A DNA stretch of 64,000 bases, taken from positions 1,116,001 to 1,180,000 of the forward strand of contig NZ_JQFA01000004.1 of NCBI RefSeq assembly GCF_000763385.1, read 5' to 3'. This document shows, piece by piece, positions 5,582 through 35,637 of this stretch. The position numbers and the translations under genes were made by a program. How positions within the stretch are numbered: the first letter of the stretch is position 1; each line of letters starts with the position of its first letter. The stretch is from Leptolyngbya sp. KIOST-1 (GTDB lineage: Bacteria; Cyanobacteriota; Cyanobacteriia; Phormidesmidales; Phormidesmidaceae). The notes below the pieces were generated by a model. It saw nothing but the letters and a program-made list of their open reading frames with translations, had not been told where the DNA came from and did not search any database.

Positions 5582-6598
5582 CTACGTTTCACGGCGGAAA
5601 GGCTCATAGGGCGCATCGTCGAGCAGGCAGGCTTTGTAGCGGCGAATCTGGAGCTGGATGATGCGGCGGTAGGGGACTGGGTCGCGGGCATCGGGGTGGT
5701 GGAGGGTGGTCATGATGCGGTCTTCAAAGGCTTGCAGGTAGCGGCGGCGGGCGTCGTCGGTGAGGTAGACGGCTCCGTTGGCCTTGGGCGGTAGAAAGGC
5801 ATCGGGCTTGAGCACCTGCTGGTTTAGCAGCGTCAGCACCAGCGTATCGACGATGGGCGAGCGAAATTCTTCCATCAGGTCAAAGGCCAGGTGGGCTTCG
5901 TGGCGATCATTTCGGTGCAGGTTGCCTAGGTAGGGGTTGAGCCCCTCCAGGTGCAACAGACTGAGCACATTGTTAAACAGCAGCGTGTAGCCAAAGCTCA
6001 GCAGGGCGTTGACCGGGTCGGTGGGCGGACGGCGCACGCGGGTGGTAAGGCTAAAGTCGGGGTTGGCGATTAGCTGGCCTAGGGCAGGGAAGTAGTAGGC
6101 AGCGATCGCCCCTTCGTGGCCCCGCAGCTGGTCGAGGCCCGTATCTGTGGCGCTGAGTTGGTCAATGGCGGCCAGGTCGCGATCGATACGGCTAATGGCC
6201 AGGGCAACGGTGTCGAGCTGGCGGCGGCGGTTCAGCTTGAGCAAGAGCTGCTTCGAGTTCCAGGCTTTGCCCCGCACGATCGCTTGGGCCACGGCCCACT
6301 GAAAGGTAAGGTCGTCGCGGTGGGCAAACTGGGCGGCGACGGCGCGGTGGTCGTCGTACTCGGCGCTCCACAGGTGGCCGCGATAGGTGCCGCTCTGCGA
6401 CAAAAACACCACCGGAATCTGACGACTGAGACAGGCGGCCATGGTGGGGGTGGTGAGGGAGATATTGCCAAACACCATCACCTGTTCCACTTCGGTCATG
6501 GGAATGGCAACATCGGTGCGATCGGGACGCGACAGCACAAAGCGCCCATGCTCTTTTTGCAGCCGAGTCCCCTGCTGGGTGAGATACAGTAGCGACAT
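5582..6598 (-). CDS. cas1: CRISPR-associated endonuclease Cas1 (stand-alone)
   Basis: A 338-residue Cas1 beginning MSLLYLTQQGTRLQKEHG, the full length for the family. The catalytic residues are visible: Glu in LRGHEGAIAAYYFPAL (about residue 162), His in PYLGNLHRND and Glu in AFDLMEEFRSPIVD. Cas1 integrates new spacers at the leader-repeat junction together with Cas2. It is read toward cas2 and array 1. It has no reverse-transcriptase domain, unlike the second Cas1 of this locus (33670-35637), and shares with it the RRPPTDPVNxLLSxGYTLL motif. It probably serves array 1, whose repeat differs from that of arrays 2 and 3; this pairing is inferred from position. The gap 6599-6839 contains a short polypurine tract and no gene that I can support. 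Confidence 0.97.
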   Translation of the reverse strand: MSLLYLTQQGTRLQKEHGRFVLSRPDRTDVAIPMTEVEQVMVFGNISLTTPTMAACLSRQIPVVFLSQSGTYRGHLWSAEYDDHRAVAAQFAHRDDLTFQWAVAQAIVRGKAWNSKQLLLKLNRRRQLDTVALAISRIDRDLAAIDQLSATDTGLDQLRGHEGAIAAYYFPALGQLIANPDFSLTTRVRRPPTDPVNALLSFGYTLLFNNVLSLLHLEGLNPYLGNLHRNDRHEAHLAFDLMEEFRSPIVDTLVLTLLNQQVLKPDAFLPPKANGAVYLTDDARRRYLQAFEDRIMTTLHHPDARDPVPYRRIIQLQIRRYKACLLDDAPYEPFRRET

Positions 6599-8496: not shown

Positions 8497-9378
8497 GTTT
8501 CCGTCCCCTTGCGGGGTAATGAGATTTGAACAAGACCCCCCGAGCCCGGGCTGCATAACCCTTGACTAGTTTCCGTTCCCTTGCGGGGTAATGAGATTTG
8601 AACTTTCTCTATGCATGAGCATGAGCTAGAAGCCATCTAGGTTTCCGTCCCCTTGCGGGGTAATGAGATTTGAACAGCTAAAAGCAAAGGAGTCCAGATT
8701 TCAAACTGAAACGTTTCCGTCCCCTTGCGGGGTAATGAGATTTGAACCTTTTCCGAGGCGCTCCCGGCGGGAACCGTGATGGTTTCCGTCCCCTTGCGGG
8801 GTAATGAGATTTGAACGCAGCATTACGGGATGCTTGTGACCGCATGGGGTTTCCGTCCCCTTGCGGGGTAATGAGATTTGAACCGGCCGTGAAGGTCAGC
8901 TTGCTGATATTCGTGCGGTTTCCGTCCCCTTGCGGGGTAATGAGATTTGAACATGATTTCTCTAAAAGCCTGTGGCTGTATCTGTCGGGTTTCCGTCCCC
9001 TTGCGGGGTAATGAGATTTGAACACCCACCTACCGGGAGTATATCACCCAATCCACTATATGTTTCCGTCCCCTTGCGGGGTAATGAGATTTGAACTCAT
9101 TGGCAACATGTCTTCTGGGTCTGTTATCATCACGTTTCCGTCCCCTTGCGGGGTAATGAGATTTGAACGTTGGGTCTGATCCCGTCGAGGCAGTGGCTCC
9201 TCAACGTTTCCGTCCCCTTGCGGGGTAATGAGATTTGAACTGGTAACGTTCCTCGGCCCCGGCCGAGGACTCTAGTTTCCGTCCCCTTGCGGGGTAATGA
9301 GATTTGAACGAGTAGGGAATTTTAGCAACGGTCGGGTGTCCTTGTTTCCGTCCCCTTGCGGGGTAATGAGATTTGAAC
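8497..9378 (-). CRISPR. CRISPR array 2: 13 repeats, 12 spacers
   Basis: A 35-bp repeat with first copy 8497-8531 and last 9344-9378. On the plus strand it begins like array 1 (GTTTCCGTCCCCTTGCGGGG) but ends TAATGAGATTTGAAC; on the minus strand it ends GGGGACGGAAAC. The only visibly mutated repeat (8569, GTTCCC for GTCCCC) is at the low end, placing the leader at 9379 onward and transcription on the minus strand. The repeat is identical to that of array 3. No cas1 is directly upstream: the leader is divergent from the cas10 operon. Confidence 0.97.
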
Positions 9379-12118: not shown

Positions 12119-12921
12119 TTCAGCTCAGCACCGTCAATCAGCAGCTTGCCCAGGCAAATCAGTCTGACACTATTGATCTCACAGCCGTCATCGACACAGC
12201 TCTCTGCGTGGGTGCGGGCGGCTCTTCTGGTTCCCTGGCCGACAAACCCATGCTCAAAGCTGCCGATGGCCGCCTGGTAATTCCGGCATCACAGCTTAAG
12301 GGGCGGCTCCGCCACGAGTGCGAAAAACTAGCGCGGGCCTTGGGCTGGCCCACCTGTACATCTCCAGTGGCGCAAACCATGTGCCCCCAAGTAGGCTTGA
12401 GTAATCCTGCGTTTCAGATAGAGGACTATGCCCTCGACCTAACCTTTGCAGATAATCGCCCCCAGCATCATTGCCTGACTTGCCAACTGTTTGGCAACCC
12501 TGCTTTACCCGCCCGGCTGCAATTTAGCGACCTGGTCTGCACCACCCCGCCCGAAGACATTCCCGAAGTGCTGCGGCCCGGTGTCAGCATCAACCGCCGC
12601 CGCCGCACCGCTGAAGATCAGAAGCTCTACTTCTTAGAGACCTCCCCTGCTAACGCCGCTCTAGAGTTTTCAGGTGTGCTAGCCCTAAATCCAGCTCTGG
12701 TTCAGAATCGACCCGATTTCGCCAAAGCTCTTATTCTGGCGGGGCTGCGCCACATCCATGCTCTGGGAGGCGGCAAATCCACTGGGCTGGGCTGGCTCCA
12801 CTGGCAGTCAACCGCCTTTGACCACCCTGGTATAGACCCAGCCGTCTGGGATTTTCTCGGCAAGAAAAAGCCAGACCGAGCAGCGGCTCAGCCCAGCGAG
12901 ACAAGGGAGGCGGCCGCATGA
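12115..12921 (+). CDS. RAMP-superfamily Cas7-type subunit (first)
   Basis: 268 residues with RAMP hallmarks: a glycine-rich early loop (CVGAGGSSGSLADKP), the VIPASQLKGRLRHECE helix that contacts the crRNA in Csm3-type proteins, and the C-terminal glycine-rich loop ALGGGKSTGLGWLHW. Several Cys pairs in the middle (CTSPVAQTMC, HHCLTCQLFG) suggest a zinc-binding insertion as known for Csm3. In type III-D complexes such subunits form the backbone along the crRNA. ATGA overlap with cas10 and with the following gene shows tight co-translation. Confidence 0.85.
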   Translation: MIQLSTVNQQLAQANQSDTIDLTAVIDTALCVGAGGSSGSLADKPMLKAADGRLVIPASQLKGRLRHECEKLARALGWPTCTSPVAQTMCPQVGLSNPAFQIEDYALDLTFADNRPQHHCLTCQLFGNPALPARLQFSDLVCTTPPEDIPEVLRPGVSINRRRRTAEDQKLYFLETSPANAALEFSGVLALNPALVQNRPDFAKALILAGLRHIHALGGGKSTGLGWLHWQSTAFDHPGIDPAVWDFLGKKKPDRAAAQPSETREAAA

Positions 12922-14159
12922 AGCAGATTACCCTTACCATTACAGCCCACTCCCCCTTAGCGATCGGCCAGCGCAAGCCGGGTGGCTCCGTCAGCGAAGC
13001 GATGGACTACATCCCCGGTACGGTGATTCGCGGTGCGATCGCAGGCCAGATTTTACGCCAGACCCAGGAGACACCCGAGACGGGGGATGATTTTCATCGG
13101 TTGTTTGTCGATGAACAGGCCGCTGTGTTTCGCAACGGCTACCCGGCGGTCGCCAGGGTAAATGACGATACCTACGAACTTAGAGCCGAAGCCATCTCTG
13201 TCTTGCCCGTCACGGCGCTGAGTTCTAAAACTGACGGTGGCTTCAAGCCCGGCAAAGCAGGCGTGTTTGACTCGCTCATCGACAGCTACTGCGCTAAAGA
13301 GCATGGCTTGTTTTATGAACCTAATGACATAACGGGCAATCGCGTAGAACCCTTTAGCGGTTTCTACAGCAAATCGGGCACCTCCCACGCTACCCACTCG
13401 GTTAACAAGCGCCTGTTGACACGGGTAGGCATCAACCGCCAACGGGCCACCGCCCAAGATGAAATTCTCTACAGCCTGGAGGTGTTGAATGAAACCCAGG
13501 GAAAACAGCAGCCAGTGCCCTCGGTCTACCGCAGCACCATTTTGGTGAATGACGATGCGCTGGCTGAGCAACTGTTGGCGTTTATTCAGGGCAATGGCGA
13601 CCGCATTCGGCTGGGCGGCTCCGCCTCACGGGGGCTGGGTCAGGTAAGCATTGCAGCAACTCTTGCTGAAGAACCAGCAAACTCTCTGCCCCATAGGGTT
13701 ACGGCCTTTAATACCAAGTTACAAGAGCGCTGGGCGCTATGGAATACCTTTGGTAGTCTTGATCCCGACCCTCTGCAAGATCGCCTCTTTTTCACCATTG
13801 ACTTTCAGGCTGATGCGATTCTTACCGAACACTGGCGACGCACGATGGTGTTGTCTGAAGCCATGCTGAAACAGTCTGCCGATCTTGCCAGCAGTGAGAT
13901 TAGGTTAGAGATGGCCTACAGCAGCTATGACTACCGCTCGGGATGGAATGCCGCCTGGGGGCTACCCAAGGATGTGGAATTAGTGACCAAGATTGGGAGT
14001 GTGTTTTTGTACAGCATTCCAATGTCGGAGGGCGACGGTTGGTATGAGTGCCTGGCTCAGCTAGAACGCTGGGGTGTGGGCGATCGTGCCAGCGAAGGCT
14101 TTGGCCAAGTTCGAGTCTGTAATGAGTTTCACCAGGTTATGCGAGAGGCGTCGGTATAA
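12918..14159 (+). CDS. csx10: Csx10-type RAMP (Cas5 subunit of type III-D)
   Basis: 413 residues beginning MKQITLTITAHSPLAIGQRK, with YIPGTVIRGAIAGQIL and a glycine-rich LGGSASRGLGQV near residue 235. These match the Csx10 family, which takes the Cas5 place and caps the crRNA 5' tag in type III-D effectors. The C-terminal half (about 270-413) has another RAMP-like loop, ASEGFGQV. Csx10 is the main marker for assigning the operon to subtype III-D. The start overlaps the previous stop by 4 bases. Confidence 0.85.
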   Translation: MKQITLTITAHSPLAIGQRKPGGSVSEAMDYIPGTVIRGAIAGQILRQTQETPETGDDFHRLFVDEQAAVFRNGYPAVARVNDDTYELRAEAISVLPVTALSSKTDGGFKPGKAGVFDSLIDSYCAKEHGLFYEPNDITGNRVEPFSGFYSKSGTSHATHSVNKRLLTRVGINRQRATAQDEILYSLEVLNETQGKQQPVPSVYRSTILVNDDALAEQLLAFIQGNGDRIRLGGSASRGLGQVSIAATLAEEPANSLPHRVTAFNTKLQERWALWNTFGSLDPDPLQDRLFFTIDFQADAILTEHWRRTMVLSEAMLKQSADLASSEIRLEMAYSSYDYRSGWNAAWGLPKDVELVTKIGSVFLYSIPMSEGDGWYECLAQLERWGVGDRASEGFGQVRVCNEFHQVMREASV

Positions 14160-14161
14160 AT

Positions 14162-14656
14162 ATGGATGCTAATGATCAGAAAATCAAGCTCAAAATTCAA
14201 AAGGAAATCCTTCAATCTGAAGATGATCTGGTGAATTGGATCGAATCAGCTCTGGAAAAGTGCAAGTATGGTCGGCCTAATACTCGAAATGAGCTAGAAG
14301 AAGCTCAATTTCGTAATCTAGTTAGGGTTGCAGACTCAACAGAAAGTCCTGCGGTGATCAAAAACTTCTTGAGATATCAAGTAGGTCGAGACGAAAAATG
14401 GGGCCGGGGAAAAGACTCACTAGCTGAACAAATTATTTTAGACATTGATGGAAACCTAAGGCTAGAAGCAGGAAAAATCGCCAATAAGGCATCTAGCACA
14501 GACACGAAGATAATTCAGATCGAACTAATTCGTCGCTATCTTGGTTATGGTTCTCGTTATCTTAAGTATCTCAAGGTGGAAGACAAAAACAAGCAAGGAA
14601 ATGTTGCCAAAGAAAACAAGACAGGCAATTCAGAAGTGATTAAAAAGCGAACTTGA
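14162..14656 (+). CDS. Small helical protein, candidate Cas11-type subunit
   Basis: 164 residues, mainly helical and lysine-rich, with no domain I can name. The size, all-helical appearance and position between csx10 and the Cas7 genes fit a Csm2/Cas11-like small subunit, which binds target RNA along the filament; this is inference from context. The conserved-looking core is LRYQVGRDEKWGRGKDSLAEQ. Base composition is clearly more AT-rich than that of cas10 or csx10. It begins 3 bases after the csx10 stop. Confidence 0.55.
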   Translation: MDANDQKIKLKIQKEILQSEDDLVNWIESALEKCKYGRPNTRNELEEAQFRNLVRVADSTESPAVIKNFLRYQVGRDEKWGRGKDSLAEQIILDIDGNLRLEAGKIANKASSTDTKIIQIELIRRYLGYGSRYLKYLKVEDKNKQGNVAKENKTGNSEVIKKRT

Positions 14657-14710
14657 TGACTCCACCCCTCCCACGGCTAAATCCTTGATCAACTCTCTAG
14701 TTCTTCCAGT

Positions 14711-15559
14711 ATGTTTCACATATTCAAAAATCGCCTTGAGATAACTGGCACCCTCACAACCATTACGGCCCTGCGTATCAGCCAAGGGCGCTCTACAGAG
14801 CCGATTGGGTCAGACCTGCCGGTTGTCAAAGATTCCTTAGGCAGACCCCTGATACCAGGATCAAGCTTTAAAGGAGCTATGCGATCCCGCCTTGAAGCGT
14901 TTATGCGGGGCATTGATCCGACTCTTGCTAAGGAACCCTCTGAGCTAGTGAGTCAGGCGATGAACTCCCATGTCAAAACCCTTAAAGAGCAACATAAGGA
15001 TGATGATCAAGCGCTGACCAAAGCTTTAGATAATTTGACGGATGAGGTTTCTAAAGTATTTGGCACTCCTTGGCAAGCCAGTAAATTTCAGGTGCAAGAC
15101 CTGATGGTAGAGGCTGATACCTGGTTTGGCCAGTACCAAGAGCGCGATGGGGTTGCCATTGACCGCGACACCGAAACCGCTTCCGATGGCAAACTCTACG
15201 ACTTTCAAGTAGTGCCTGCGGGTACGTCCTTTGAGTTCAAAGCCGTGGTCGAGAATGCCGACCCCTGGGAACTGGGTTTGCTGATGGTGGGCTTGCACCA
15301 GTTTGAAGCTCAGCAGATCCCTTTAGGGGGCGGTAAGTCGAGGGGATTAGGTGTTGTCAGTCTAGAACTCGATGAAATGATTTGGGTAAATCCAGATGGT
15401 TCTGAGGCACTAGTTAAGTACTTAGAGCACTTAGTTAATAATCAGCTCCAGTCTTACAACAAAACAGCACACGAGATTCAGTCTCTTAAACGGGAGTGGT
15501 CTACAGCGCTCATTCACAAGCTAACCCAGGCCGTATCAGCGGAGAAAGCCCATGCATAA
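14711..15559 (+). CDS. RAMP-superfamily Csm3-type subunit (second)
   Basis: 282 residues. The order of motifs is that of Csm3: SDLPVVKDSLGRPLIPGSSF (residues 34-53) followed by FKGAMRSRLEAF, an RDGVAIDRDTETASDGKLYD loop near 145-165, and the C-terminal glycine loop PLGGGKSRGLGVV. In Csm3 an Asp in the first loop cuts target RNA every six bases; Asp36 here is a candidate. A 54-bp gap separates it from the previous gene, the longest inside the operon, and its end overlaps the next gene by 8 bases. Confidence 0.85.
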   Translation: MFHIFKNRLEITGTLTTITALRISQGRSTEPIGSDLPVVKDSLGRPLIPGSSFKGAMRSRLEAFMRGIDPTLAKEPSELVSQAMNSHVKTLKEQHKDDDQALTKALDNLTDEVSKVFGTPWQASKFQVQDLMVEADTWFGQYQERDGVAIDRDTETASDGKLYDFQVVPAGTSFEFKAVVENADPWELGLLMVGLHQFEAQQIPLGGGKSRGLGVVSLELDEMIWVNPDGSEALVKYLEHLVNNQLQSYNKTAHEIQSLKREWSTALIHKLTQAVSAEKAHA

Positions 15560-16559
15560 GCGCTTTGTAAACCACTGCACTATCAACCTGACGATTTCTC
15601 CCCGTGGGCCGGTGCTGATTAAATCTGGCAAAGAGGGAGCTGATCCCACCAAGCCCGATATGGAATTTGTAGAAACGTATCACGGCGGGGGGCGCTCTAT
15701 TTACTTGCCAGGTAGCTCTCTCAAAGGGGCTTTGCGTGCCCACGCCGAGCGCATTGTGCGCACCATTGGTAGCGATCGCTTTCCTCCAGACTTACCAAAC
15801 TTAGATCCCCAAGATGATCTGCCTATACCTCTATGGGCAACAGATCCATTGAATCAAAAAAGTTACAAGTATCTAGAGACGCCGCAAAAAGAGAAAGATA
15901 CGCAAACCATTTATCGATGGTCATCGTTTACCGACCAGCTGTTTGGCAGTGTGGCGATCGCCGCTCGCTTGCGCATAGAAGACGCCTACCCAGACCCAGA
16001 GCAACCCAAGCCCCGGCTTGAAGAACGTAATGGGGTAGCCATCGATCGCGTCTTTGGATCGGTAGCAGTGGGGCCGTTTAACTACCAAGTCTGCACTGAA
16101 GGAGCATTTCGCACCAAAATTCACCTCAAAAACTTCACTCTAGAGCAGCTGGGGCTGCTGGGGCTGGTGTTGCGTGACCTGCGAGAGGGATGGTTTGGGC
16201 TGGGTTTTGCCAAGTCGCGGGGCATGGGCCTAGTAGATGTCAAACTTAACGACGCCAGGATTGAGTATCCCGGCTGTGTGCTGGAAGGTGGGCAGATCTA
16301 CACCCTGGGCAGCCAGACCCCGTGGGAGGCCGTTGCCCTCAAAGGATCTGGAGCATTTTTGCCTGAGGCAGAGCGCCAAAACTACGGATTTCCCAAAAAA
16401 GATGTGCAACCACTCGATGCCTCAAAGGCAGAATTCATCCTTGAGGAGATGGACTACGGATTGGGAGTACGGCTTAGTTGGTCTGACAACCAGATTGATG
16501 ACCTGTTTCGGATGGCGGTAGCAGCCTGGCGCAAACGGCTGCAGGAGGTAGCCGCGTGA
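15552..16559 (+). CDS. RAMP-superfamily Csm3-type subunit (third)
   Basis: 335 residues, related to the preceding gene: an early loop LIKSGKEGADPTKPDMEFV with Asp residues, YLPGSSLKGALRAHAERIV near 52-70, the ERNGVAIDRVFGSVAVGPF loop near 170, and a C-terminal GFAKSRGMGLVDV glycine loop. A longer C-terminal tail of about 90 residues follows. Together with 14711 and 12115 it would form the Cas7 backbone. It starts inside the previous gene and its stop overlaps the GTG start of csx19. Confidence 0.85.
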   Translation: MHKRFVNHCTINLTISPRGPVLIKSGKEGADPTKPDMEFVETYHGGGRSIYLPGSSLKGALRAHAERIVRTIGSDRFPPDLPNLDPQDDLPIPLWATDPLNQKSYKYLETPQKEKDTQTIYRWSSFTDQLFGSVAIAARLRIEDAYPDPEQPKPRLEERNGVAIDRVFGSVAVGPFNYQVCTEGAFRTKIHLKNFTLEQLGLLGLVLRDLREGWFGLGFAKSRGMGLVDVKLNDARIEYPGCVLEGGQIYTLGSQTPWEAVALKGSGAFLPEAERQNYGFPKKDVQPLDASKAEFILEEMDYGLGVRLSWSDNQIDDLFRMAVAAWRKRLQEVAA

Positions 16560-17044
16560 CCCAGGCACAAGAGCAAAACACTACCGATCGCCCCTTTGTC
16601 GGTGACAATGCCATTCCGCTAGACACCACCGCACTGGTAGCTCTAATCAAGCATTACGTGGCAGAGCCTATATGGCACTGCCTGCGTTGGCCTCACACCA
16701 TTTCTCTCGGGGCAGGGTTGCCCAGTACCACGGTCCTTGATTGCCCAGAGGGACAGGTATTTAATCGCGATCGCGAGCTGCGCTGGAGACGGCGACAAGA
16801 TACCTACACGGTGCTGCTACTCTCTAGCACCCCAGTTCCTGATACCGACCTGAGAGCACTAGTGAATCCTCAGCACCAGCGACAAACCTGGCAGATTCGC
16901 AACCTAAATGCTCAGTTTTATCCCACCACCGAAACCCGGTTTCCGCAGGGGATTACCTATCCTGACCGGCTCGACATCGGGCAGCGATACTTTATTGATG
17001 AGCAAACTGGCATTGTGCAATTTGTGGCATTGAGGGCTTTATAA
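16556..17044 (+). CDS. csx19: Csx19-like accessory protein of type III-D
   Basis: 162 residues starting at a GTG that overlaps the previous stop. It fits my recollection of Csx19 (TIGR03984): a short alpha/beta protein with a conserved FNRDRELRWRRR block (about residues 70-82) and an R-x-D-I-G-Q-R-Y-F element near the C-terminus. Csx19 occurs in type III-D operons and its function was not established as far as I know. Assignment rests on the ELRW motif, the length and the operon position. Confidence 0.65.
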   Translation: MTQAQEQNTTDRPFVGDNAIPLDTTALVALIKHYVAEPIWHCLRWPHTISLGAGLPSTTVLDCPEGQVFNRDRELRWRRRQDTYTVLLLSSTPVPDTDLRALVNPQHQRQTWQIRNLNAQFYPTTETRFPQGITYPDRLDIGQRYFIDEQTGIVQFVALRAL

Positions 17045-17045
17045 C

Positions 17046-18083
17046 ATGACCGCAAATCGACCTAGCAAGCCTATCCGGCGATCGCCCCAATCTGATGAAG
17101 GGCCAGATAAGCCCTATGCTCTGGTGTCATTTCCTCGGGAAAAGCCGTTTCTTAAACCCCCAGTAGGGCACCATCGCTACAGAGCAGACGCTTACCACGG
17201 CACCCTATTTTTGACCCTCAAGGTATTGACGGCCCTGTATGTCTCGACCGGGGTGACAGCTTTGGGTAGTGATATGGGTAGTCGAGTACCGCTCGTTAAA
17301 ACTATGGTGCAGGGCAGGCAGCAGCAATTGCTGATTCAGGGCAGTTCGCTGAAGGGCTGTGTGCGTGCCATCTATGAGGCCATTACCAACAGCACCCTGG
17401 CAGTCATCACCAACCGCTATCGGCAAAAAATGCCAAAAGAGCGTCTGCCCTGCCGCAGCAAAGATAGTCTATGCCCTGCCAGCCAAGTATTTGGAGCACT
17501 CGATTGGCAGGGGCTAGTTCACTTTACCGACGCCACTTGTACCTCAGCCAAGTCAGTGACGGGGTTTATGCCCTCGCTCTACCGTCCTCGACCCGAGGAG
17601 CGAGATGCCTACTATGACCGAGAGTATGCGGCGGGGCGCAAGTTTTATCGCCATGCGGTGAAGGCAGTAGATAAGGGCGATCGCGGTATTCCAGTGCAGC
17701 AAGCAGGTACAGAGTACGTATTTAAAACCCAGCTGCACTTTAGAAACCTGACTGAGGCGCAACTGGGGACGTTGCTAATTGCCCTGGGACAGGATTCGCA
17801 GTACCCCATAGCGCTAAAGCTAGGTGGCGGTAAGCCAGTGGGCATGGGGACAGTGCAGGTGTCGGTGCCGACCCTGGAAGTGACGCAAGACGTGCGCGAT
17901 CGCTATGCTAACTACGACCCACCCGAAGCCGAAACCCTGACCGGCGAAGCGGTAACACTGTTTATTCAAAAAATGACCCAGGCCGCTAAGTCGAACCAAC
18001 TGGTGGAGCTACCCCAGCTAGAGGAACTGGCGGAGATTTTGCGCTGGCCCACTGACCGCACTGCACCGGAGGGAATGTACTAA
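17046..18083 (+). CDS. RAMP-superfamily protein of TIGR03986 type (fourth Cas7-like)
   Basis: 345 residues. YRADAYHGTLFLTLKVLTAL is an N-terminal RAMP strand pattern; QGSSLKGCVRAIYEAITNS (about residues 98-116) is the crRNA-contacting helix and KLGGGKPVGMGTVQV the glycine loop. Cys residues in LPCRSKDSLCPASQVFG may bind zinc. It resembles the TIGR03986 group of large Csm5-like RAMPs that often sit beside csx19, and may cap the 3' end of the complex; that is inferred. It starts 1 base after csx19 and its TAA shares a base with the next ATG. Confidence 0.75.
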   Translation: MTANRPSKPIRRSPQSDEGPDKPYALVSFPREKPFLKPPVGHHRYRADAYHGTLFLTLKVLTALYVSTGVTALGSDMGSRVPLVKTMVQGRQQQLLIQGSSLKGCVRAIYEAITNSTLAVITNRYRQKMPKERLPCRSKDSLCPASQVFGALDWQGLVHFTDATCTSAKSVTGFMPSLYRPRPEERDAYYDREYAAGRKFYRHAVKAVDKGDRGIPVQQAGTEYVFKTQLHFRNLTEAQLGTLLIALGQDSQYPIALKLGGGKPVGMGTVQVSVPTLEVTQDVRDRYANYDPPEAETLTGEAVTLFIQKMTQAAKSNQLVELPQLEELAEILRWPTDRTAPEGMY

Positions 18084-18712
18084 TGCTGGCAACCGAAGAA
18101 CTCACTGAGGCCCAGTGGCAGATTGCCGATGCGATCGCCCGGCAGCTAGTGATTGAAGGTACAGATGTGAATGAGTTCCGCAAAGCGATTAGCTATTTGC
18201 GCGATCGCCAGGATGAGTCAGACGCTGGCAAGAAGTTTTTTGACTATTTGAAGACACTGGCGCGTCATGGCAATGCGATTGGCCACAGCAAGCGAACACA
18301 GGGCTACTACCAAAGCCTAGATGCAGTGTGTAGTCAGTTTTTAGAGAACTATAAAGATGATGCCCCCAGAACGCTGCACATTTTGAGCTGGGCGGCTCGC
18401 CTGGTGCAGTACTACGACAAAGGAGTACCGACTGGGGAAATCGAGAAGCCCACTGTTTTTGTGTCAGAGCGAGAAGCAGAGATTAAGGCTATAACCGAAG
18501 CTCACAAATTTGAAGTAGGGCAGGAACTTGAAGCAGTTGTCACAACTATAAAGAACAGTAAAGTAACCTATGAAATTTTGGGGAGCATTAAGCTTACTCA
18601 AAGAGAGCCAAAAATAGCAGATAAGGTACATGAAGGGCAAGCTCTTAAGGTAGCGGTTGCTGAGCTGAAGGAAAATGGATCAATCAAAAAAGTGAAAGCT
18701 GCTATAAACTAG
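18083..18712 (+). CDS. Type III operon protein of unknown function (helical plus OB/TRAM-like domain)
   Basis: 209 residues, not a family I can name with certainty. The N-terminal 130 residues are helical (YLRDRQDESDAGKKFFDYLK, HILSWAARLVQYY). The last 70 form a beta-rich segment beginning FEVGQELEAVVTTIKNSKVT and ending LKENGSIKKVKAAI, which reads like a TRAM/OB nucleic-acid-binding domain. I recall such proteins in other cyanobacterial type III clusters. Translation is coupled to the RAMP upstream (TAATG). It may be a second small subunit or an RNA-binding accessory. Confidence 0.6.
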   Translation: MLATEELTEAQWQIADAIARQLVIEGTDVNEFRKAISYLRDRQDESDAGKKFFDYLKTLARHGNAIGHSKRTQGYYQSLDAVCSQFLENYKDDAPRTLHILSWAARLVQYYDKGVPTGEIEKPTVFVSEREAEIKAITEAHKFEVGQELEAVVTTIKNSKVTYEILGSIKLTQREPKIADKVHEGQALKVAVAELKENGSIKKVKAAIN

Positions 18713-29264: not shown

Positions 29265-29630
29265 TTAAGCTTTGGCGCGGTTGGAGAGAGTGACGAAAAT
29301 AGCGATTAGTTCGTTGGCCTCATCTGTTAAGCTAGTCAACTTCTGAGGTGCTACGAGATTAGCATCGGCAAGCAGTTCTAGCCAGTACACAGACTCTTCT
29401 AGCTCTTGGAGTCCGCCACCTACTTTGCTGATGTACTCAGCTTTGGAGCGCGATCGCACAGCTTCTCGGTAATGTGCCCCTACGGAGGTACCACTCCGTA
29501 GAAGCTGTTTACCCAAAATCTGAGCCTCGGTGCTTTTCGGCAATGAGCCATAAAGCTTGATGATCCGTAGGGCAAATGTCTTCGTTCGCTGCCGCAAGTC
29601 TTCCGGTTGAGGATTTTGGCTAACGGGCAT
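29265..29630 (-). CDS. Four-helix bundle protein (S23/TIGR02436 type), array 3 side
   Basis: 121 residues from the ATG at 29630 (MPVSQNPQPEDLRQRTKTFA), a close paralogue of 1218-1574: LRSGTSVGAHYREAVRSRSK and GGGLQELEESVYWLELLA. The frame is open further upstream into the first repeat of array 3, but that part is polypurine tract and repeat. It lies 150 bp beyond the leader-distal end of array 3, in the direction of array transcription, as the paralogue does for array 1. Run-off transcription from the arrays could reach it. Confidence 0.8.
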   Translation of the reverse strand: MPVSQNPQPEDLRQRTKTFALRIIKLYGSLPKSTEAQILGKQLLRSGTSVGAHYREAVRSRSKAEYISKVGGGLQELEESVYWLELLADANLVAPQKLTSLTDEANELIAIFVTLSNRAKA

Positions 29631-29780: not shown

Positions 29781-31459
29781 GTTTCCGTCCCCTTGCGGGG
29801 TAATGAGATTTGAACGCGCCAATCAGACTGGCCTAAACTTTGGCTTTTTTGGCAAGGTTTCCGTCCCCTTGCGGGGTAATGAGATTTGAACCTTCGACCC
29901 TCGCCGCTACCATCCTGCTGTTTGGCGTGTTTCCGTCCCCTTGCGGGGTAATGAGATTTGAACCTTCATCGACCAACAACACAGTGGTCGCAAAATTTAC
30001 ATTGTTTCCGTCCCCTTGCGGGGTAATGAGATTTGAACCTTCAGAAGGTATGAGCTGGAACGACGTCATGTTGTACGTTTCCGTCCCCTTGCGGGGTAAT
30101 GAGATTTGAACCGCAGTAACCAACGCTCCCGAGCCTACTCCTGCTCGTTTCCGTCCCCTTGCGGGGTAATGAGATTTGAACACTACCACGACTACTGTGT
30201 TTGGCCTTGTTTCTGTGTTTCCGTCCCCTTGCGGGGTAATGAGATTTGAACGAGTGCTATTCGTGTGGGTGGCCTGCAGCAGAGGAGGGTTTCCGTCCCC
30301 TTGCGGGGTAATGAGATTTGAACTTGCCCTTGGGCATACCCGGTACCCAACCCAGGGGTTTCCGTCCCCTTGCGGGGTAATGAGATTTGAACCTGGGTCT
30401 ACTTTCGGCAATATCTCGGGCTTTGCGTTTCCGTCCCCTTGCGGGGTAATGAGATTTGAACCCTACGGGTCAGACCACGCGCACGTGACAGGCTTGAAAA
30501 TGTTTCCGTCCCCTTGCGGGGTAATGAGATTTGAACTGGAGTATATCCGGAATTACAATAAGGTTTGGACCCTGTTTCCGTCCCCTTGCGGGGTAATGAG
30601 ATTTGAACAAGATGAAATCCCCGTAAATTTTGATGTAACCTCCTCGTTTCCGTCCCCTTGCGGGGTAATGAGATTTGAACCAATATAACACAGTGGTTAT
30701 CGGAAACGAGCAGTATGAAGTTTCCGTCCCCTTGCGGGGTAATGAGATTTGAACGCTTTTAAATAAGCGTTATCAGGGAGCTCAATACCAGTTTCCGTCC
30801 CCTTGCGGGGTAATGAGATTTGAACACACAAATGTTGGTGAATTCACATCAGCTGTGATGGTTTCCGTCCCCTTGCGGGGTAATGAGATTTGAACGGGAC
30901 AAAGACCAAAGCGTCCCCTGCCCCAACGGGTTTCCGTCCCCTTGCGGGGTAATGAGATTTGAACCACAATTCGGTATACCTTCAACGGTCAGCCAATTAG
31001 TTTCCGTCCCCTTGCGGGGTAATGAGATTTGAACAAAAGGTCAGGCCCAGTTTCAAACGCTCCTGGAAGTTTCCGTCCCCTTGCGGGGTAATGAGATTTG
31101 AACAGCACGTCAAGAACTGCAAGAAGCTCGCCAACAAGTTTCCGTCCCCTTGCGGGGTAATGAGATTTGAACGAGACACATGGATGATGCGACATGAGAT
31201 TAGCTGGTTTCCGTCCCCTTGCGGGGTAATGAGATTTGAACAGGTGGTCCGGGCTACTGCCCGACCATCGGAACCTGTTTCCGTCCCCTTGCGGGGTAAT
31301 GAGATTTGAACATTCGACGGTGAAGTATCCTCTTTTGAGGAACTGCAGAGCGTTTCCGTCCCCTTGCGGGGTAATGAGATTTGAACCTCAGAGGAGCTCG
31401 CAGAGAACGAGGTTGAGACTGAGGGTTTCCGTCCCCTTGCGGGGTAATGAGATTTGAAC
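29781..31459 (-). CRISPR. CRISPR array 3: 24 repeats, 23 spacers
   Basis: 35-bp repeats identical to those of array 2, first at 29781-29815, last at 31425-31459. Spacers are about 34-41 bp and all differ. All repeats look perfect, so the array gives no internal polarity, but the flank after 31459 matches the leader of array 2 over about 180 bp and contains the conserved element at the same distance. The transcript is therefore minus strand, with repeats ending GGGGACGGAAAC. The RT-cas1 module lies upstream of the leader on the same strand. Confidence 0.97.
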
Positions 31460-31609
31460 CCCCGGCCTCTAGAACCCTTACGGGACAAGGGTTCTAGATA
31501 GCCATTTTCGTGGGGGTCTAACGGAAGGTGAAATTATTGCGAATTGCTGTCAACAGACACCCTGAGAAATAGGCTGAAAGCCTTACAGGGTAAGTGATTC
31601 GCGGGGGTC

Positions 31610-31641
31610 AACGAAATAATGCGGTTTTCAAGGTTCGGCAG
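31610..31641 (-). promoter_or_regulatory. Array 3 leader element
   Basis: AACGAAATAATGCGGTTTTC followed by AAGGTTCGGCAG, starting 151 bp from the last repeat exactly as at arrays 1 and 2. The leader is 31460-31709. Next to the repeat there is an inverted pair, TCTAGAACCCTT and AAGGGTTCTAGA (31468-31496), able to form a stable hairpin in the leader transcript. Confidence 0.65.
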
Positions 31642-31709
31642 ACCCTAACGAAAGAGTCAGCTATACAGCGATATTAGCCAAATAATTTGCCATTGCCAAC
31701 AGAAACCAA

Positions 31710-32441
31710 TCATTTCTCAATATTTTGACGATTGACGTGCATCAAAATGTCGCGGAGAACACCGCTTTTGCCGTGGCAGTTCAGCAACACGACCTCTCCG
31801 TTAAGCGCTCCTGAGGCTTGCAGGCTATAAATGGCGCGGGTTAGAGGGTGGCTCATGTAATCGGCAATGATGACGATCAGGGTGCAGCAGCTAAGCTTTT
31901 TCTTGAGTTTGCCCTTGCGGATGCTGGCCTCTCGCAGCGGCGGAATCGTGACCCAGTGTTTGAGCCCGTAATGGGTGGTGAGTTCTTTGATCACGCTCCG
32001 CCGGGTGGCGGGGTGCCCACCCACCAGACCTAGGACGATTAGAGATAAATCTGGCGTCGGGGCTTCTGGGGCGGCATGGAGCGCTGGACAGGGCACCACG
32101 CTTTGGAGTTGGACGGGGTTGCCATGGGCTTGAGCCAGGTAGCCCATGAGTTCTTGAAGCTGCTGTTCAAGTTCCCAGACCTGCAGTTGCAGGTCGTCGC
32201 GTTCGTCTTCGGCCTGCTTCTTGAGCGCTGCTAGGCCCCGTATTTCTAGATTGGCCAGTCGTTGATTTTCTGCGGACTCTTGCTGCATAAGGTTTTGCTC
32301 GGCTTGTAGGGTCGAGAGGTGTTTCATCAGTCGTCGTTTGTCTCGGCGGTCTTTGCCCGACACTCCGTCAATTAAGGGCTGCAGCCTGGCCTGCGACGCT
32401 AGATAGCCTTGCCCAAGCCAGTTGAGGATGAGGTTTAGCAT
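31710..32441 (-). CDS. Coiled-coil protein with DUF2325-like C-terminal domain
   Basis: 243 residues. Residues about 35-125 are a charged coiled coil (KRRLMKHLSTLQAEQNLMQQ; ERDDLQLQVWELEQQLQELM). The C-terminal 100 residues form an alpha/beta domain: LIVLGLVGGHPATRRSVIKE, CTLIVIIADYMSHPLTRAIY, VVLLNCHGKSGVLRDILMHV. The GG...R start, the middle D-x-x-S-H and the last strand fit DUF2325, a family with no established activity that I know. Its TGA/ATG spacing to the next gene is 4 bases, so it belongs to the RT-cas1 operon, of which it is the last gene before the leader of array 3. A role in adaptation or regulation is inferred from position. Confidence 0.65.
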   Translation of the reverse strand: MLNLILNWLGQGYLASQARLQPLIDGVSGKDRRDKRRLMKHLSTLQAEQNLMQQESAENQRLANLEIRGLAALKKQAEDERDDLQLQVWELEQQLQELMGYLAQAHGNPVQLQSVVPCPALHAAPEAPTPDLSLIVLGLVGGHPATRRSVIKELTTHYGLKHWVTIPPLREASIRKGKLKKKLSCCTLIVIIADYMSHPLTRAIYSLQASGALNGEVVLLNCHGKSGVLRDILMHVNRQNIEK

Positions 32442-32445
32442 AGGC

Positions 32446-32832
32446 TTACTCCAGAGGTTTGACCCAAACAGAAGCGTTGTCGGCTAACCGCTCCAGGGCG
32501 GCAAAAATGGTTCGATAGTGGCCAAATAGCTCTTGTCCGGCTTCAGTGTCTAAATACCCGCACCGAATAGCGACCTGCACCCAGGTCTGCATCTCTGCCG
32601 CCTCCGCTTGGGCATCGCTGAGCTTAGCCACAAAAGCCTTACGGTAGCGACGCTTGCCCCAGGCCTCGGCAATGCTGGCACACACCGATCGCGATGCCGT
32701 CAGCGACTGCCGGGTCAGCAGGTCTTTCTCTTCCTCCGGAAACCCTCGCGAGAGGCGGTAAATATCCATCGAGCAGTTGAATGCCAGTTGATAAACCTGA
32801 AGCTCTTGGTAGCTGTGAATGAAGTCGTGCAT
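32446..32832 (-). CDS. Four-helix bundle protein (Avd/S23-like), second in RT-cas1 operon
   Basis: 128 residues: FIHSYQELQVYQLAFNCSMD (first helix with the LxVYQxA signature), SLTASRSVCASIAEAWGKRR, and AEAAEMQTWVQVAIRCGYL. These are features of the S23/bAvd-like four-helix family. It is a tandem paralogue of 32958-33377. In diversity-generating retroelements the homologous Avd protein binds the reverse transcriptase; here the neighbour is an RT-Cas1 fusion, so a similar partnership is a reasonable hypothesis. The intergenic 32833-32957 is a polypurine-polypyrimidine inverted tract. Confidence 0.8.
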   Translation of the reverse strand: MHDFIHSYQELQVYQLAFNCSMDIYRLSRGFPEEEKDLLTRQSLTASRSVCASIAEAWGKRRYRKAFVAKLSDAQAEAAEMQTWVQVAIRCGYLDTEAGQELFGHYRTIFAALERLADNASVWVKPLE

Positions 32833-32957
32833 GGTGGTTGTCCCTTTAAAAGTGAAGATAGAAAAGGGAAAAACGAAAAGGAAAGAGAGGAAAATTCATC
32901 CTGCTGTTTACGAATTACGCCTTTCGTTCTTCGTTTTTCGTTTTTCCCTCTTTCCCA

Positions 32958-33377
32958 TCAGGCCGTCGCCCGCCAAATCGCCCCCCGGCTCCCCTGCCGC
33001 CGCTTGGCCGTCGCCATCGCGCTCGCCATCAGCTGATCGAGGGCCACATAAATGCAGCGATAGCGGTCATACAAGCCTTGCCCCACGTCAGCCGTGAGAT
33101 ACCCAGCACCAGTAGCCGCTTCAATCCAAATTTGCATCTCGGCTGCCTCCAGCTGAGCCGTGCTGAGATGGCCGATCAAGGCTTCCAAATTGCGTCGTTT
33201 ACCCCAGGCCGCAGCAATATTGGCGCGCACCGCCCGAGATGTCGATAGGAGCTTTGCCGCCAGGTACGTATCGAAACCCTGAGGAAATTGTTGGATCAGG
33301 CGATATAAATCAACCGAGCCTTCAAAGGCCAACTGATAGACCTGAAGGTCTCGAAAGCTGTGAACAAAGTTCTGCAT
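32958..33377 (-). CDS. Four-helix bundle protein (Avd/S23-like), first in RT-cas1 operon
   Basis: 139 residues: FVHSFRDLQVYQLAFEGSVD, LLSTSRAVRANIAAAWGKRR and EAAEMQIWIEAATGAGYLTA, aligned throughout with the next gene downstream (about 45-50% identical by eye), plus a basic C-terminal tail (ATAKRRQGSRG). It starts 14 bases after the stop of cas2. The basic helix surface would suit nucleic acid or RT binding. Function is inferred from family and position. Confidence 0.8.
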   Translation of the reverse strand: MQNFVHSFRDLQVYQLAFEGSVDLYRLIQQFPQGFDTYLAAKLLSTSRAVRANIAAAWGKRRNLEALIGHLSTAQLEAAEMQIWIEAATGAGYLTADVGQGLYDRYRCIYVALDQLMASAMATAKRRQGSRGAIWRATA

Positions 33378-33391
33378 GATGATTTCTCCGG

Positions 33392-33670
33392 TCAGACAAT
33401 AAAGGCCACGTCGTCAACTTCTCGCTGGGGCTGTAGCCCCAGAACGAGCACTTTTTTGCGATAGCGAGGTGAAAGTGGATAAAAGCGCACCTGGTCTTCT
33501 TCGGGCTTGATGTAGCGGCTGAGCTTGCGTTGCAACATCTCCCGCTGATCGGGGGTCAGCACACACTCAAACACCGACTTCTGCACCCGCATGCCGTAGC
33601 CTTCGAGGATGTGCGCTACCTTGTTGCGGCGGCGATCGAGCACGATGTCGTAGGTGACGAGGTAGAACAT
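33392..33670 (-). CDS. cas2: CRISPR-associated endonuclease Cas2 (RT-Cas1 module)
   Basis: 92 residues: MFYLVTYDIVLDRRRNKVAH then GYGMRVQKSVFECVLTPDQ, a typical Cas2 with Asp8 in YDIVLD. Its start overlaps the last base of the RT-cas1 stop, so the two proteins are co-translated. It differs clearly from the first Cas2 (5170-5445), consistent with two independently maintained adaptation modules. Confidence 0.95.
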   Translation of the reverse strand: MFYLVTYDIVLDRRRNKVAHILEGYGMRVQKSVFECVLTPDQREMLQRKLSRYIKPEEDQVRFYPLSPRYRKKVLVLGLQPQREVDDVAFIV

Positions 33671-35637
33671 TACTTCTCCATCCTCATGGGTCGATACACC
33701 GGCTGCTCACCCATCAAACAGGCCACATATTCCCAGACCTGCAACTCTAAACAGCGCCGATAGCTGACCTTGTAGCCCGTATGGGGATGGGTTACGCTCT
33801 GCTGCAGCTTCTCCTCCCAATGCTTGAGAAAGCGCTTCATCGCATCGGGGTGTAGGTAAACTCCGCCGCGTTCATCGGGGGGCGTAAAGTCGTCCGGCTT
33901 GAAAATGTTGGAGTTGATCAGGTAGGCCACCAAAGAATCCACCGCAATGGCGCGAAACTCTTCCACCAGGTCGCACACCAGGGAGGGCCGGTTGGCCTGG
34001 GGCTTGTGTAGATTGCCAAAATGGGTGTGCAAGCCCACCCCCTCGACCATGGCATGCACGTTCTGCGATAGCAGCGTGTAGCCCAGGCTCAGCAGGCTGT
34101 TGACTGGGTCGGTGGGCGGGCGGCGGGTGCGCTTCTCAAACTCAAATTTGCCCTTCAGCAGCGAGGCATAGGCCTGAAAATACTGGTTGGCCCCAGTGCC
34201 TTCGTAGCCCAGCATGGCCTCCACCGAATCGGCGGTGGGCACCGTTTCCATTAGCTCCGCCAGGGTGGCTATGGCCTGGGTCGCCCTCTCGGTCTTGCGC
34301 CGTCGGTTCAACCGCAGCAGCAAAATCCGCGAGTTGTGCAGCTTGCCGACAATGGTGCTGGCCGCCTGGGTGCGAATAAAGTCTGGGTCTTGAGACTTGT
34401 AAACCTGCTGGGTCAGATACTCCAGCTTGGCCTGCCCGGTGGTCTGCAAACGGCCAAAATAGCGGCCCTTATTCGACAGGTATAGCAGCGGAATGCGCCG
34501 TTGTAGAGCCAGCCGCACCGCCCCGTGCGACACGGTGCAGGCTCCAAATAACACCACATGGCTAATCTGGCTGGCAGGTACTGAGCAGCGCAGCTCCTGC
34601 TGATGAAATACTTGAAACTGCTGCTGCTTGACCCGTAAATAGGCTCCCTGGTCGGTCACGTACAGAGTGGTCATGCCGTCCCTCCAATATTCGTCAGTGG
34701 ATGATTTCGCTATGGGCTGGGGACTTTTCACGATGCTGCACACCTTCGGCGGCCCCCACACCGCCTTGGCCGTTTTCTGCTTTTTGCTTGCTACCTTTTG
34801 CCTTTCTGGCGGTTCCACATCACCCCCTTGAAACCGATGCCCCAAAAACACAAACTCCTGATCAGGCGGAATGATCTGGGTCTTCTCGGGATGCAGGGTG
34901 AGGTAGAGGTCTTCAATCCAGTCCTGCATAAGGGCCAGGGATCGGCTGGCTTCGAGGTAGCTCTGGCACACGGCCACGCAGTCGTCGCCGTAGCGCACCA
35001 GGGTGATATCGGCCTCTAGGCAGCGGCAGTCAAAGTCGTTCAAATACAGGTTGGCCAGCGCCCCAGACAAAATGCTGCCCTGCAATACTCCCTGGTTGGG
35101 GCGATAGAAATGGCCATTGATCACCATCCCCGCCTTGAGCTGATGCTCAATCCACCGCACCCACAGGGGCGGCAAGCCTAGCTGATCGAGCTGGTGCAGC
35201 AGCACCGGCCAAGATAGAGTGTCAAAAAACTGCTGAATATCAACCTTAATCACCCAGGCCGGGGAGTGACGATAGCGCTCCATCACCCGATCGACAGCGG
35301 TATAGATCGAGAGGCCGGGGCGATAGGCAAAAGCCGCATCGCTAAAGGCATCCTCCAGCTTGGGATAGATGCTTTGCAGCAGATAGCGCTGCACAATCCG
35401 ATCCTTCACCGTAGGGATGCCAATCAGGCGATTTCCCCCACTCTTTTTGGGCAGGTAAAAGCCCTTGGCTGGGCTGGCGACATAGCGCTCCTGCCGCATC
35501 TGCTGATGCAGCAGCCGAATTTGCTCCTGGGCAATGCCCCTAAACAAATCCACCGTCATGCCATCTACCCCAGCGGCCTGGCTGCCCCGTTCGACCAGGT
35601 GCCAGGCGGTGGCGAGTTGTTCTCGATAGAGGTTCAT
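33670..35637 (-). CDS. cas1: Reverse transcriptase-Cas1 fusion protein
   Basis: 655 residues. Residues 1-270 are a group II intron-like RT: YLPKKSGGNRLIGIPTVKDR (RT2), AFAYRPGLS, KVDIQQFFDTLSW (RT3), NQGVLQGSILSGALANLYL (RT4), the catalytic YGDD at 216-219, and FLGHRFQGGD (RT7). After a linker of about 50 residues rich in Lys and Pro, Cas1 starts near 322 (MTTLYVTDQGAYLRVKQQQF), with YEGTGANQYFQAY, HFGNLHKPQANRPSLVCDLV and EEFRAIAVD carrying the catalytic Glu, His and Glu. No Cas6 domain is fused. Such proteins allow spacers to be taken from RNA in type III systems. It heads an operon of five genes ending at the leader of array 3. Confidence 0.97.
   Translation of the reverse strand: MNLYREQLATAWHLVERGSQAAGVDGMTVDLFRGIAQEQIRLLHQQMRQERYVASPAKGFYLPKKSGGNRLIGIPTVKDRIVQRYLLQSIYPKLEDAFSDAAFAYRPGLSIYTAVDRVMERYRHSPAWVIKVDIQQFFDTLSWPVLLHQLDQLGLPPLWVRWIEHQLKAGMVINGHFYRPNQGVLQGSILSGALANLYLNDFDCRCLEADITLVRYGDDCVAVCQSYLEASRSLALMQDWIEDLYLTLHPEKTQIIPPDQEFVFLGHRFQGGDVEPPERQKVASKKQKTAKAVWGPPKVCSIVKSPQPIAKSSTDEYWRDGMTTLYVTDQGAYLRVKQQQFQVFHQQELRCSVPASQISHVVLFGACTVSHGAVRLALQRRIPLLYLSNKGRYFGRLQTTGQAKLEYLTQQVYKSQDPDFIRTQAASTIVGKLHNSRILLLRLNRRRKTERATQAIATLAELMETVPTADSVEAMLGYEGTGANQYFQAYASLLKGKFEFEKRTRRPPTDPVNSLLSLGYTLLSQNVHAMVEGVGLHTHFGNLHKPQANRPSLVCDLVEEFRAIAVDSLVAYLINSNIFKPDDFTPPDERGGVYLHPDAMKRFLKHWEEKLQQSVTHPHTGYKVSYRRCLELQVWEYVACLMGEQPVYRPMRMEK

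Follow-up and report, generated by a model that had tools for sequence, protein, structure and literature searches.

Adaptation modules in which a reverse transcriptase (RT) is fused to Cas1 are a known part of type III CRISPR systems, as set out in passages of Silas et al. 2017 (PMC5513706) and Toro et al. 2017 (PMC5541045). In the part of Wang et al. 2021 (PMC8102632) that concerns integration, full-site integration is reported with double-stranded DNA only, and further host factors may be needed for RNA. Here we describe an operon within a 64,000-nt stretch of DNA from Leptolyngbya sp. KIOST-1 (contig NZ_JQFA01000004.1, positions 1,116,001 to 1,180,000; hereafter the window, in whose numbering coordinates are given) in which RT-cas1 and cas2 are followed by two genes for four-helix proteins of the S23/23S rRNA intervening-sequence protein (IVP) family, IVP-A and IVP-B, and by a third gene, encoding a DUF2325-like protein, ahead of the leader of a CRISPR array. 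The operon is like the modules of those passages in having RT fused to Cas1, cas2 and an array adjoining, and a type III effector, and unlike them in adding the cassette of IVP-A, IVP-B and the third gene. This cassette belongs to one RT-Cas1 clade, with IVPs of single origin, a kept gene order and constrained genes, and it stands beside two kinds of type III effector. The presence of conserved companions within one RT-Cas1 clade bears on how RT-Cas1 integrases take up RNA efficiently, and the cassette, as a set of small companions in one cyanobacterial group, offers candidates for the missing helpers of writing RNA into CRISPR memory.

The RT-cas1 operon and where its cassette occurs

A sequence-only reading of the window had described five genes running without interruption into the leader of array 3. 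All five are present on the minus strand, with coordinates that agree with that reading, in the order RT-cas1, cas2, IVP-A, IVP-B, DUF2325-like gene, leader and array 3:

33670..35637, minus strand: RT-cas1 fusion, 655 aa; RVT_1 4e-33 (residues 63-269), Cas_Cas1 2.1e-89 (residues 325-609)
33392..33670, minus strand: cas2, 92 aa; CRISPR_Cas2 1.5e-26
32958..33377, minus strand: IVP-A, S23/23S-rRNA-IVP four-helix protein, 139 aa; PF05635 8.9e-14, 52.0 bits
32446..32832, minus strand: IVP-B, S23/23S-rRNA-IVP four-helix protein, 128 aa; PF05635 1.7e-25, 89.7 bits
31710..32441, minus strand: DUF2325-like protein, 243 aa; match to DUF2325 (PF10087) with E 0.0093, 16.6 bits
31460..31709, minus strand: leader of array 3, 250 nt
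29781..31459, minus strand: CRISPR array 3, 24 repeats GTTCAAATCTCATTACCCCGCAAGGGGACGGAAAC

The RT and Cas1 domains are the sole two Pfam matches of the RT-Cas1 protein, and both lie in one 655-aa open reading frame (ORF). RT-cas1 and cas2 overlap by 1 base, and gaps of 14 nt, 125 nt and 4 nt separate cas2 from IVP-A, IVP-A from IVP-B and IVP-B from the DUF2325-like gene; the phrase "without interruption" suits the operon overall but not the 125-nt gap between the two IVP genes. The fusion, the adjoining cas2, leader and array, and a type III-D effector elsewhere in the window together place the operon among the RT-Cas1 type III adaptation modules. Divergent from RT-cas1 lies a helix-turn-helix/NTPase (STAND-like) gene (35956-37395).

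Our genome searches covered cyanobacteria, together with scans of contigs and plasmids using the window's RT-Cas1 and IVP-B (L and G numbers label loci and genomes). Among 38 loci found via RT-Cas1, several of them on short contigs, a co-oriented IVP gene directly follows cas2 in 11 (L008-L013, L016, L017, L020, L029, L037), eight of which also carry a DUF2325-like gene (L008-L013, L020, L037); L007 and L041 have an antisense IVP in place of the co-oriented one. The window's order was represented by 63 genomes of one family; 13 of them have RT-Cas1, at 14 places in all, and one or two co-oriented IVP genes lie past cas2 in all ten loci whose contig continues, the window included (G000, G427, G430, G444, G387 twice, G391, G397, G436 and G437). 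The four further loci end at contig ends; the remaining operon is found at another contig end in three (G410, G441, G420), and the fourth (G412) is uninformative on IVP presence. The adjacency of cas2 and IVP-A in Nodosilinea P-1105 is deduced across a contig gap. Strong DUF2325-like matches (E < 1e-78) are present in 11 of the 63 genomes, ten of which have RT-Cas1. The eleventh, G404, carries cas2-IVP-A-IVP-B without RT-cas1 on one contig and a DUF2325-like gene by an array on another (L134, L216), and these are scattered remains of the operon. Reading frames are broken in L029 (RT-cas1 and IVP), and the RT-cas1 gene of G387:C1 contains a stop.

Of 386 genomes from across the phylum, 19 matched RT-Cas1 or Cas1 at E <= 1e-80 and 15 had a DUF2325-like match at E <= 0.001, the window's own being alone below 1e-100; the strong matches in G078, G101 and G185 are C-termini of long proteins, and the one that was scanned has tetratricopeptide repeats (TPRs). 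Next to the type III-A genes of a Pseudanabaena galeata plasmid lie RT-cas1, cas2, an IVP gene, a gene for a DUF2325-only protein and an array. Seven loci without the cassette (L023, L024, L026, L027, L030, L031, L036) have a different arrangement, in which RT-cas1 leads to an array and then to a second cas1-cas2. Examination of gene neighbourhoods, which the sequence-only reading had proposed as a check, thus bears out a real co-occurrence on one strand that is conserved across genera, and random association of these families with RT-cas1 is rejected within cyanobacteria by the ten of ten loci, the one clade and the constrained genes.

The RT-Cas1 tree has 45 rows, of which the 16 with an IVP fall on one side of a branch with support of 100/99. 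Two of these (L014 and L015) are counted as IVP-bearing on the strength of the other contig ends of G441 and G420, which carry IVP-DUF-array and IVP-ParE-array, and rows under about 500 aligned residues (L020, L029 and others) were dropped. In the midpoint-rooted drawing the P. galeata plasmid is the earliest branch among the IVP-bearing RT-Cas1 proteins. A tree of IVPs likewise places 29 sampled operonic IVPs on one side of a branch and 34 free IVPs on the other (100/100). The operonic IVPs stem from one recruitment and have changed afterwards. Finite pairwise dN/dS values (saturated dS values excluded) range from 0.03 to 0.24 overall; against the window they are 0.06-0.11 for IVP-B, 0.06-0.08 for RT-cas1, 0.08-0.24 for IVP-A, and 0.09 and 0.21 for the DUF2325-like gene, and the ratios of three comparisons without the window, in which ORFs were aligned with upstream extensions, are rough.

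The companion proteins and the leader

All four IVPs of the window, namely IVP-A, IVP-B and two described below (IVP-C and the IVP at 1218), pass the curated cut-off of PF05635 (33.8 bits). The sequence-only reading had called IVP-A and IVP-B Avd-like, after the accessory protein of diversity-generating retroelements (DGRs). As regards fold this holds for the model of IVP-B (pLDDT 89.9), which S23 proteins fit best (2gsc, Z 17.8, rmsd 2.2 over 115 residues; 2rld, Z 17.6, rmsd 1.5 over 110), followed by chains of a DGR RT ribonucleoprotein (8ub8_C, which we take to be Avd, Z 16.0, rmsd 1.9 over 111; 8ub7_C, Z 15.8) and Avd alone (4dwl, Z 14.8), although helical bundles score high generally and a common fold says nothing on function. 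As regards sequence family it does not hold: the profile cut-offs assign the proteins to S23/IVP, and membership in Avd is rejected, with bAvd (PF22296, cut-off 40) giving 15.1 bits for IVP-B and no match for IVP-A, and DivGenRetAVD matching neither at E <= 1. Consistent with this assignment, hhalign probabilities against cyanobacterial Avds are 0.4% for IVP-A and 18.9% for IVP-B, whereas two sets of free IVPs reach 97.1% and 77.4%.

The surface of Avd is basic. The net charge of the operonic IVPs has mostly moved away from that of Avd. Median net charge is -5 for IVP-A (n=11), -3 for IVP-B (n=14) and -4.5 for single operonic IVPs (n=4), as against +3.5 in a hand-chosen set of 46 free IVPs from the 63 genomes (Mann-Whitney p 1e-11, which is descriptive since the rows are related); 129 IVP matches gave 80 distinct sequences for this comparison, and five fragments were dropped (three from L029, one each from L147 and L002). 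Of the 29 operonic IVPs, 26 have a negative net charge, and the other three are the IVP-A proteins of the window (+4), P-1105 (+3) and Kaiparowitsia (0); IVP-A is thus negative in 8 of 11 operons, and IVP-B of the window has a net charge of -2. Thirteen cyanobacterial Avds range from 0 to +11. The first 300 residues of RT-Cas1 carry a net charge of +2 to +11 in 12 IVP-bearing loci and -3 to +5 in 12 others, and this more basic RT part would suit the docking of an acidic partner.

The third protein is named DUF2325-like because the operon copies score below the curated DUF2325 cut-off of 33.6 bits (window 16.6, L134 25.2, L153 20.5); the link to DUF2325 draws support from a homologous chromosomal copy in a related genome (L142) that passes (6.9e-11, 42.6 bits). 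A model of the protein (pLDDT 80.7, pTM 0.43) has a long helix (residues 30-106), probably a coiled coil, and a Rossmann-like C-terminal domain. We considered this domain as a CARF-like ligand sensor but do not claim it to be one, Foldseek giving no Protein Data Bank (PDB) match at E <= 0.001 (best, an Argonaute MID domain at 5.6e-3). The idea that the third gene is a known type of defence gene was rejected: PADLOC has no match to the window's DUF2325-like protein at E <= 0.1 or to the proteins of L134 and L153 and the ParE_like protein of L017 at E <= 0.01. Related domains occur elsewhere. In L130, L131, L132 and L141 a TPR protein of about 735 aa with a C-terminal DUF2325-like domain adjoins a large helicase and a PLD-like protein, which in L130 match DpdJ and DpdK of PADLOC. 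Solitary DUF2325-like paralogues of about 260-330 aa lie in two conserved chromosomal neighbourhoods (L135, L136, L138-L140, L142-L145) and are a possible source of the operon gene.

In L016, L017, L146, L147 and L217 another gene, whose product is about 148 aa in most, replaces the DUF2325-like gene. DUF7682 (PF24730, zinc-binding) and ParE_like (PF24732) are both above cut-off in all four products scanned (L016, L017, L146, L147), and the L217 gene was recognised by its own profile. The window has no ParE_like gene, and its source genome has one distant match elsewhere. Between the DUF7682-ParE_like gene and the array of L016 (13255-13857) we note two small genes that by eye resemble a ParD/ParE pair. 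On the RT-Cas1 tree the labels DUF2325-like, ParE_like and no cassette require two changes in all, the minimum possible. The repeat hairpin is CCCCGnnAGGGG in 12 of 12 arrays beside DUF2325-like genes and CTTCYTCGGAAG in 4 of 4 beside ParE_like genes, a difference that may follow descent.

Exchange is also seen among DUF2325-like genes themselves. Those of the window's near relatives form two classes, 39-45% identical between classes and 56-77% within. Between the window and Nodosilinea P-1105 (L148), RT-Cas1 is 94% identical and cas2, IVP-A, IVP-B and IVP-C are 92-95% identical, as compared with 40-41% for the DUF2325-like protein; DNA identity of about 90% stops near the end of IVP-B and resumes beyond the array, the segment 31460-32455 of the window being strongly divergent. 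Comparison of these sequences indicates that the third gene is exchangeable and has been swapped between near-identical operons.

The divergent segment includes the leader, which contains three 12-nt boxes, the first of them inverted, at distances of 193, 150 and 59 nt upstream of the first repeat's first base:

31641..31652, plus strand: leader box 1, inverted copy; the minus strand reads TTCGTTAGGGTC
31598..31609, minus strand: leader box 2, GACCCCCGCGAA
31507..31518, minus strand: leader box 3, GACCCCCACGAA

Leaders of 12 DUF2325 operons align with almost no gaps over about 190 nt, and the box patterns recur to within 1 nt of these three positions in 8, 8 and 11 of the 12, respectively; the P. 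galeata leader has no match at any of them. Boxes are alike within one leader and unlike between leaders, with RACCCYMRCGAR or a relative in one class and GACCCCCTCAGA in the other. Partial Mantel tests on 11 operons indicate that box distance tracks DUF2325 distance when RT distance is controlled for (r 0.59, p 0.0016) and when the remainder of the leader is controlled for as well (r 0.43, p 0.004), and does not track IVP-B distance with RT controlled for (r -0.20, p 0.93). The longest exact repeats per leader exceed shuffles in several of 14 leaders, not all; in the window's leader the inverted repeat alone does so (p 0.04), and it may be another hairpin.

These patterns would fit a third protein that reads the leader, which we regard as possible, if on the unlikely side. 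Several points weigh against it. The box patterns were composed after the sequences had been seen, and a joint swap of gene and leader may be mere linkage, because the DUF2325 gene adjoins the leader. The rest of the leader, too, tracks DUF2325 distance given RT (r 0.69, p 0.0002), as well as RT distance given DUF2325 (r 0.64). In G404 the DUF2325-like protein is nearest to a class-1 copy but the boxes are of class 2, the P. galeata leader has a third box type, and ParE-type leaders carry comparable boxes. Finally, similar sites occur at aligned positions at array 1 of the window, where cas1-cas2 has no DUF2325-like or ParE_like neighbour.

The rest of the window and other CRISPR-linked IVPs

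Beyond the operon and array 3 the window holds further CRISPR features:

9782..18712, plus strand: type III-D effector genes (cas10, csm3-like, csx10/cas5, csm2, csm3-like, csx19, csx21)
8497..9378, minus strand: array 2, with array 3's repeat in 12 exact copies and a leader of the other box class (CTCAGA)
5170..6598, minus strand: a further cas1 (5582-6598) and cas2 (5170-5445), stand-alone, that lead into array 1
about 1811-4930: array 1, next to the stand-alone cas1-cas2
29265..29630, minus strand: IVP-C, basic S23/IVP of GAHYREA type at the far end of array 3; PF05635 2e-18 (frame 29265-29822), 67.0 bits
1218..1574, minus strand: IVP of GAHYREA type at the far end of array 1; PF05635 2.7e-20, 73.0 bits

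Array 2 has no cas1-cas2 of its own adjoining. At 8497-9629 it combines the repeat of array 3 with leader boxes of the opposite class, in a genome that has a single DUF2325-like match. Array 1 contains a run of near-identical 68-nt repeat-spacer units (2735-3791; 15 exact copies of one unit), which looks as if one spacer had been amplified, or may be an assembly artefact.

The source genome encodes six IVPs, four of them inside the window. Those at the far ends of arrays 1 and 3, which the sequence-only reading had left out, seem from their sequences to represent a second CRISPR-linked IVP lineage, of the basic GAHYREA type, and a counterpart of IVP-C also adjoins an array in P-1105 (L148). 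In a non-random, hand-chosen sample from other genomes, with a 1.5-kb limit and motif types both set after viewing the loci, six of seven GAHYREA-type IVPs have an array or cas1-cas2 within that limit (L220, L221, L223, L228, L230, L233, at array ends or by cas1-cas2 without RT), as compared with 0 of 12 of the SRSV type, 0 of 9 IAEG, 0 of 3 GANVEEA and 1 of 6 unassigned. L237, one of the 38 stretches sampled here, was left out for want of an IVP match, and a three-copy repeat about 2 kb from two SRSV-type genes is unlike a CRISPR array though the array finder reported it. The one unassigned positive adjoins a non-Cas RT fragment; in L231 (4677-5745) an IVP gene lies 35 nt upstream of a non-Cas RT fragment. 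We also observed antisense IVP genes between RT-cas1 and cas2 (L007), between cas1 and cas2 (L041, L155) and by the start of RT-cas1 (L012, L075).

Possible roles of the cassette and comparison with known systems

The cassette probably has a role in spacer acquisition. As a whole, the account that we favour, tentatively and at slightly less than an even chance, is that this is an RT-Cas1 spacer-acquisition operon with its own accessory cassette, in which the IVPs would bind the RT-Cas1 complex and the third protein would read the leader. On this account IVP-A and IVP-B, which are mostly acidic, would belong to the acquisition complex as subunits and would dock on the RT domain, itself unusually basic in this clade. 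Such docking is predicted from sequence and charge, and we lean somewhat against it. Docked IVPs could assist in the capture, reverse transcription or full integration of RNA or single-stranded protospacers. On weaker grounds, the product of the third gene, DUF2325-like in the window and DUF7682-ParE_like in the sister clade, might recognise the three leader boxes and direct integration to the first repeat; in other systems (type I-E) leader-side integration is directed by IHF. Were the third protein to read the leader, this would account for the separation of several arrays and integrases within one genome, and RNA-recording tools based on RT-Cas1 would profit from it. A bolder version, which we think improbable, predicts an exchangeable address system: a specificity protein would read three boxes at fixed distances, a swap of gene and leader would redirect the same integrase, and acidic IVP-A and IVP-B would clamp the basic RT and supply the factor for full integration of RNA-derived spacers. 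Docking as proposed has difficulties of its own. IVP-A of the window is itself basic (+4), and the difference in RT-domain charge is a single split in a single tree. Moreover, 29 rows of the RT-Cas1 tree show no cassette (12 of these, from L063-L076, were viewed with 1.5-kb flanks only), so the cassette is dispensable for RT-Cas1 generally.

Several other explanations deserve consideration. Were the IVPs to act like Avd, they would be basic four-helix oligomers that bind template RNA and RT and are obligatory for complementary DNA synthesis on protospacer RNA. The common fold (Z 16.0 and 15.8 for 8ub8_C and 8ub7_C, 14.8 for 4dwl), the adjoining RT and the basic IVP-A of the window are in keeping with this, but the net charge below 0 of 26 of 29 operonic IVPs, a profile match to Avd weaker than that of two free-IVP groups and the many RT-Cas1 loci without a visible IVP make it a rather poor candidate. 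Still less credible is passive hitchhiking of common, perhaps mobile, S23/IVP genes. IVPs are indeed common in the window's order (120 matches in 42 of 63 genomes, about one per 3 Mb), and antisense copies sit in or by other cas1 loci (L007, L012, L041, L075, L155); the operonic IVPs, on the other hand, form one clade, are co-oriented, constrained and charge-shifted, and are present in ten of ten continuing loci, so that hitchhiking is largely refuted for IVP-A and IVP-B, the antisense copies excepted.

ParE-like toxin domains and exchangeable alleles are typical of regulatory or addiction modules, and the third gene, perhaps with the IVPs, might accordingly form a module that governs or safeguards the expression of the adaptation genes and is no part of the acquisition machinery. 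The replacement of DUF2325 by DUF7682-ParE_like, the allelic swap and the ParD/ParE-looking pair, recognised by eye, between third gene and array in L016 speak for such a module, as does the linkage of toxin-antitoxin genes to cas genes in section 14 of Altae-Tran et al. 2023 (PMC10910872). Set against this, the DUF2325-like protein has no toxin-family match in Pfam, NCBIfam or PADLOC, antitoxins not having been searched for systematically, and the operon order and single-origin IVPs indicate a stable partnership; we consider the module unlikely. A last suggestion, that the cassette consists of ancillary parts of type III interference or signalling that came to lie in an adaptation operon by chance, could draw on the type III character of the loci where it can be seen, on the Rossmann-like fold of the DUF2325-like model and on the TPR protein whose DUF2325-like domain adjoins DpdJ/DpdK-like defence genes. 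We find it very unlikely, given that the cassette stays with RT-cas1-cas2 beside both III-D and III-A and that the DUF2325-like model lacks a PDB match at the E value used above.

The sequence-only reading knew of no description of an Avd-like helper for RNA-derived spacer acquisition. In the openly licensed literature, as far as titles, beginnings of abstracts and passages go, we found no description of the cassette, no paper pairing RT-Cas1 with "four helix bundle" and no DUF2325 paper on CRISPR. The word "helix" is absent from the main texts of PMC5513706, PMC5541045 and PMC6013744, and "helix bundle" from PMC9048733. Against this, in Altae-Tran et al. 2023 (PMC10910872) the Fig. 6B legend names "23S rRNA IVP" and "RVT" among proteins linked to adaptation modules, so that a link between IVPs and adaptation genes may already be in print as a drawing; the main text of that paper, as searched, has no mention of IVPs beyond that legend and none of "S23" or "DUF2325". 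New with respect to the literature passages are the single IVP origin, the charge shift, the exchangeable third gene and the leader boxes.

Taken together, the operon resembles the associations of Altae-Tran et al. in joining an IVP to an RT, and the legend does not establish identity with the operon of the window. Operonic IVPs share family and fold with S23/23S rRNA intervening-sequence proteins (PF05635, TIGR02436; 2gsc, 2rld) and, unlike free S23/IVPs, are mostly acidic, often tandem, part of an operon and in a separate clade. With the DGR accessory Avd (PF22296; 4dwl, 8ub7/8ub8) they share the fold and an association with RT, the latter described for Avd in passages of the myRT paper (PMC8934634), whereas they differ from Avd in sequence family, charge and type of RT, with no sign of obligatory pairing. 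The likeness to IHF in type I-E acquisition is confined to a proposed leader-reading role upstream of the first repeat; unlike IHF, the third protein, which is unrelated to it, is array-specific and encoded in the operon.

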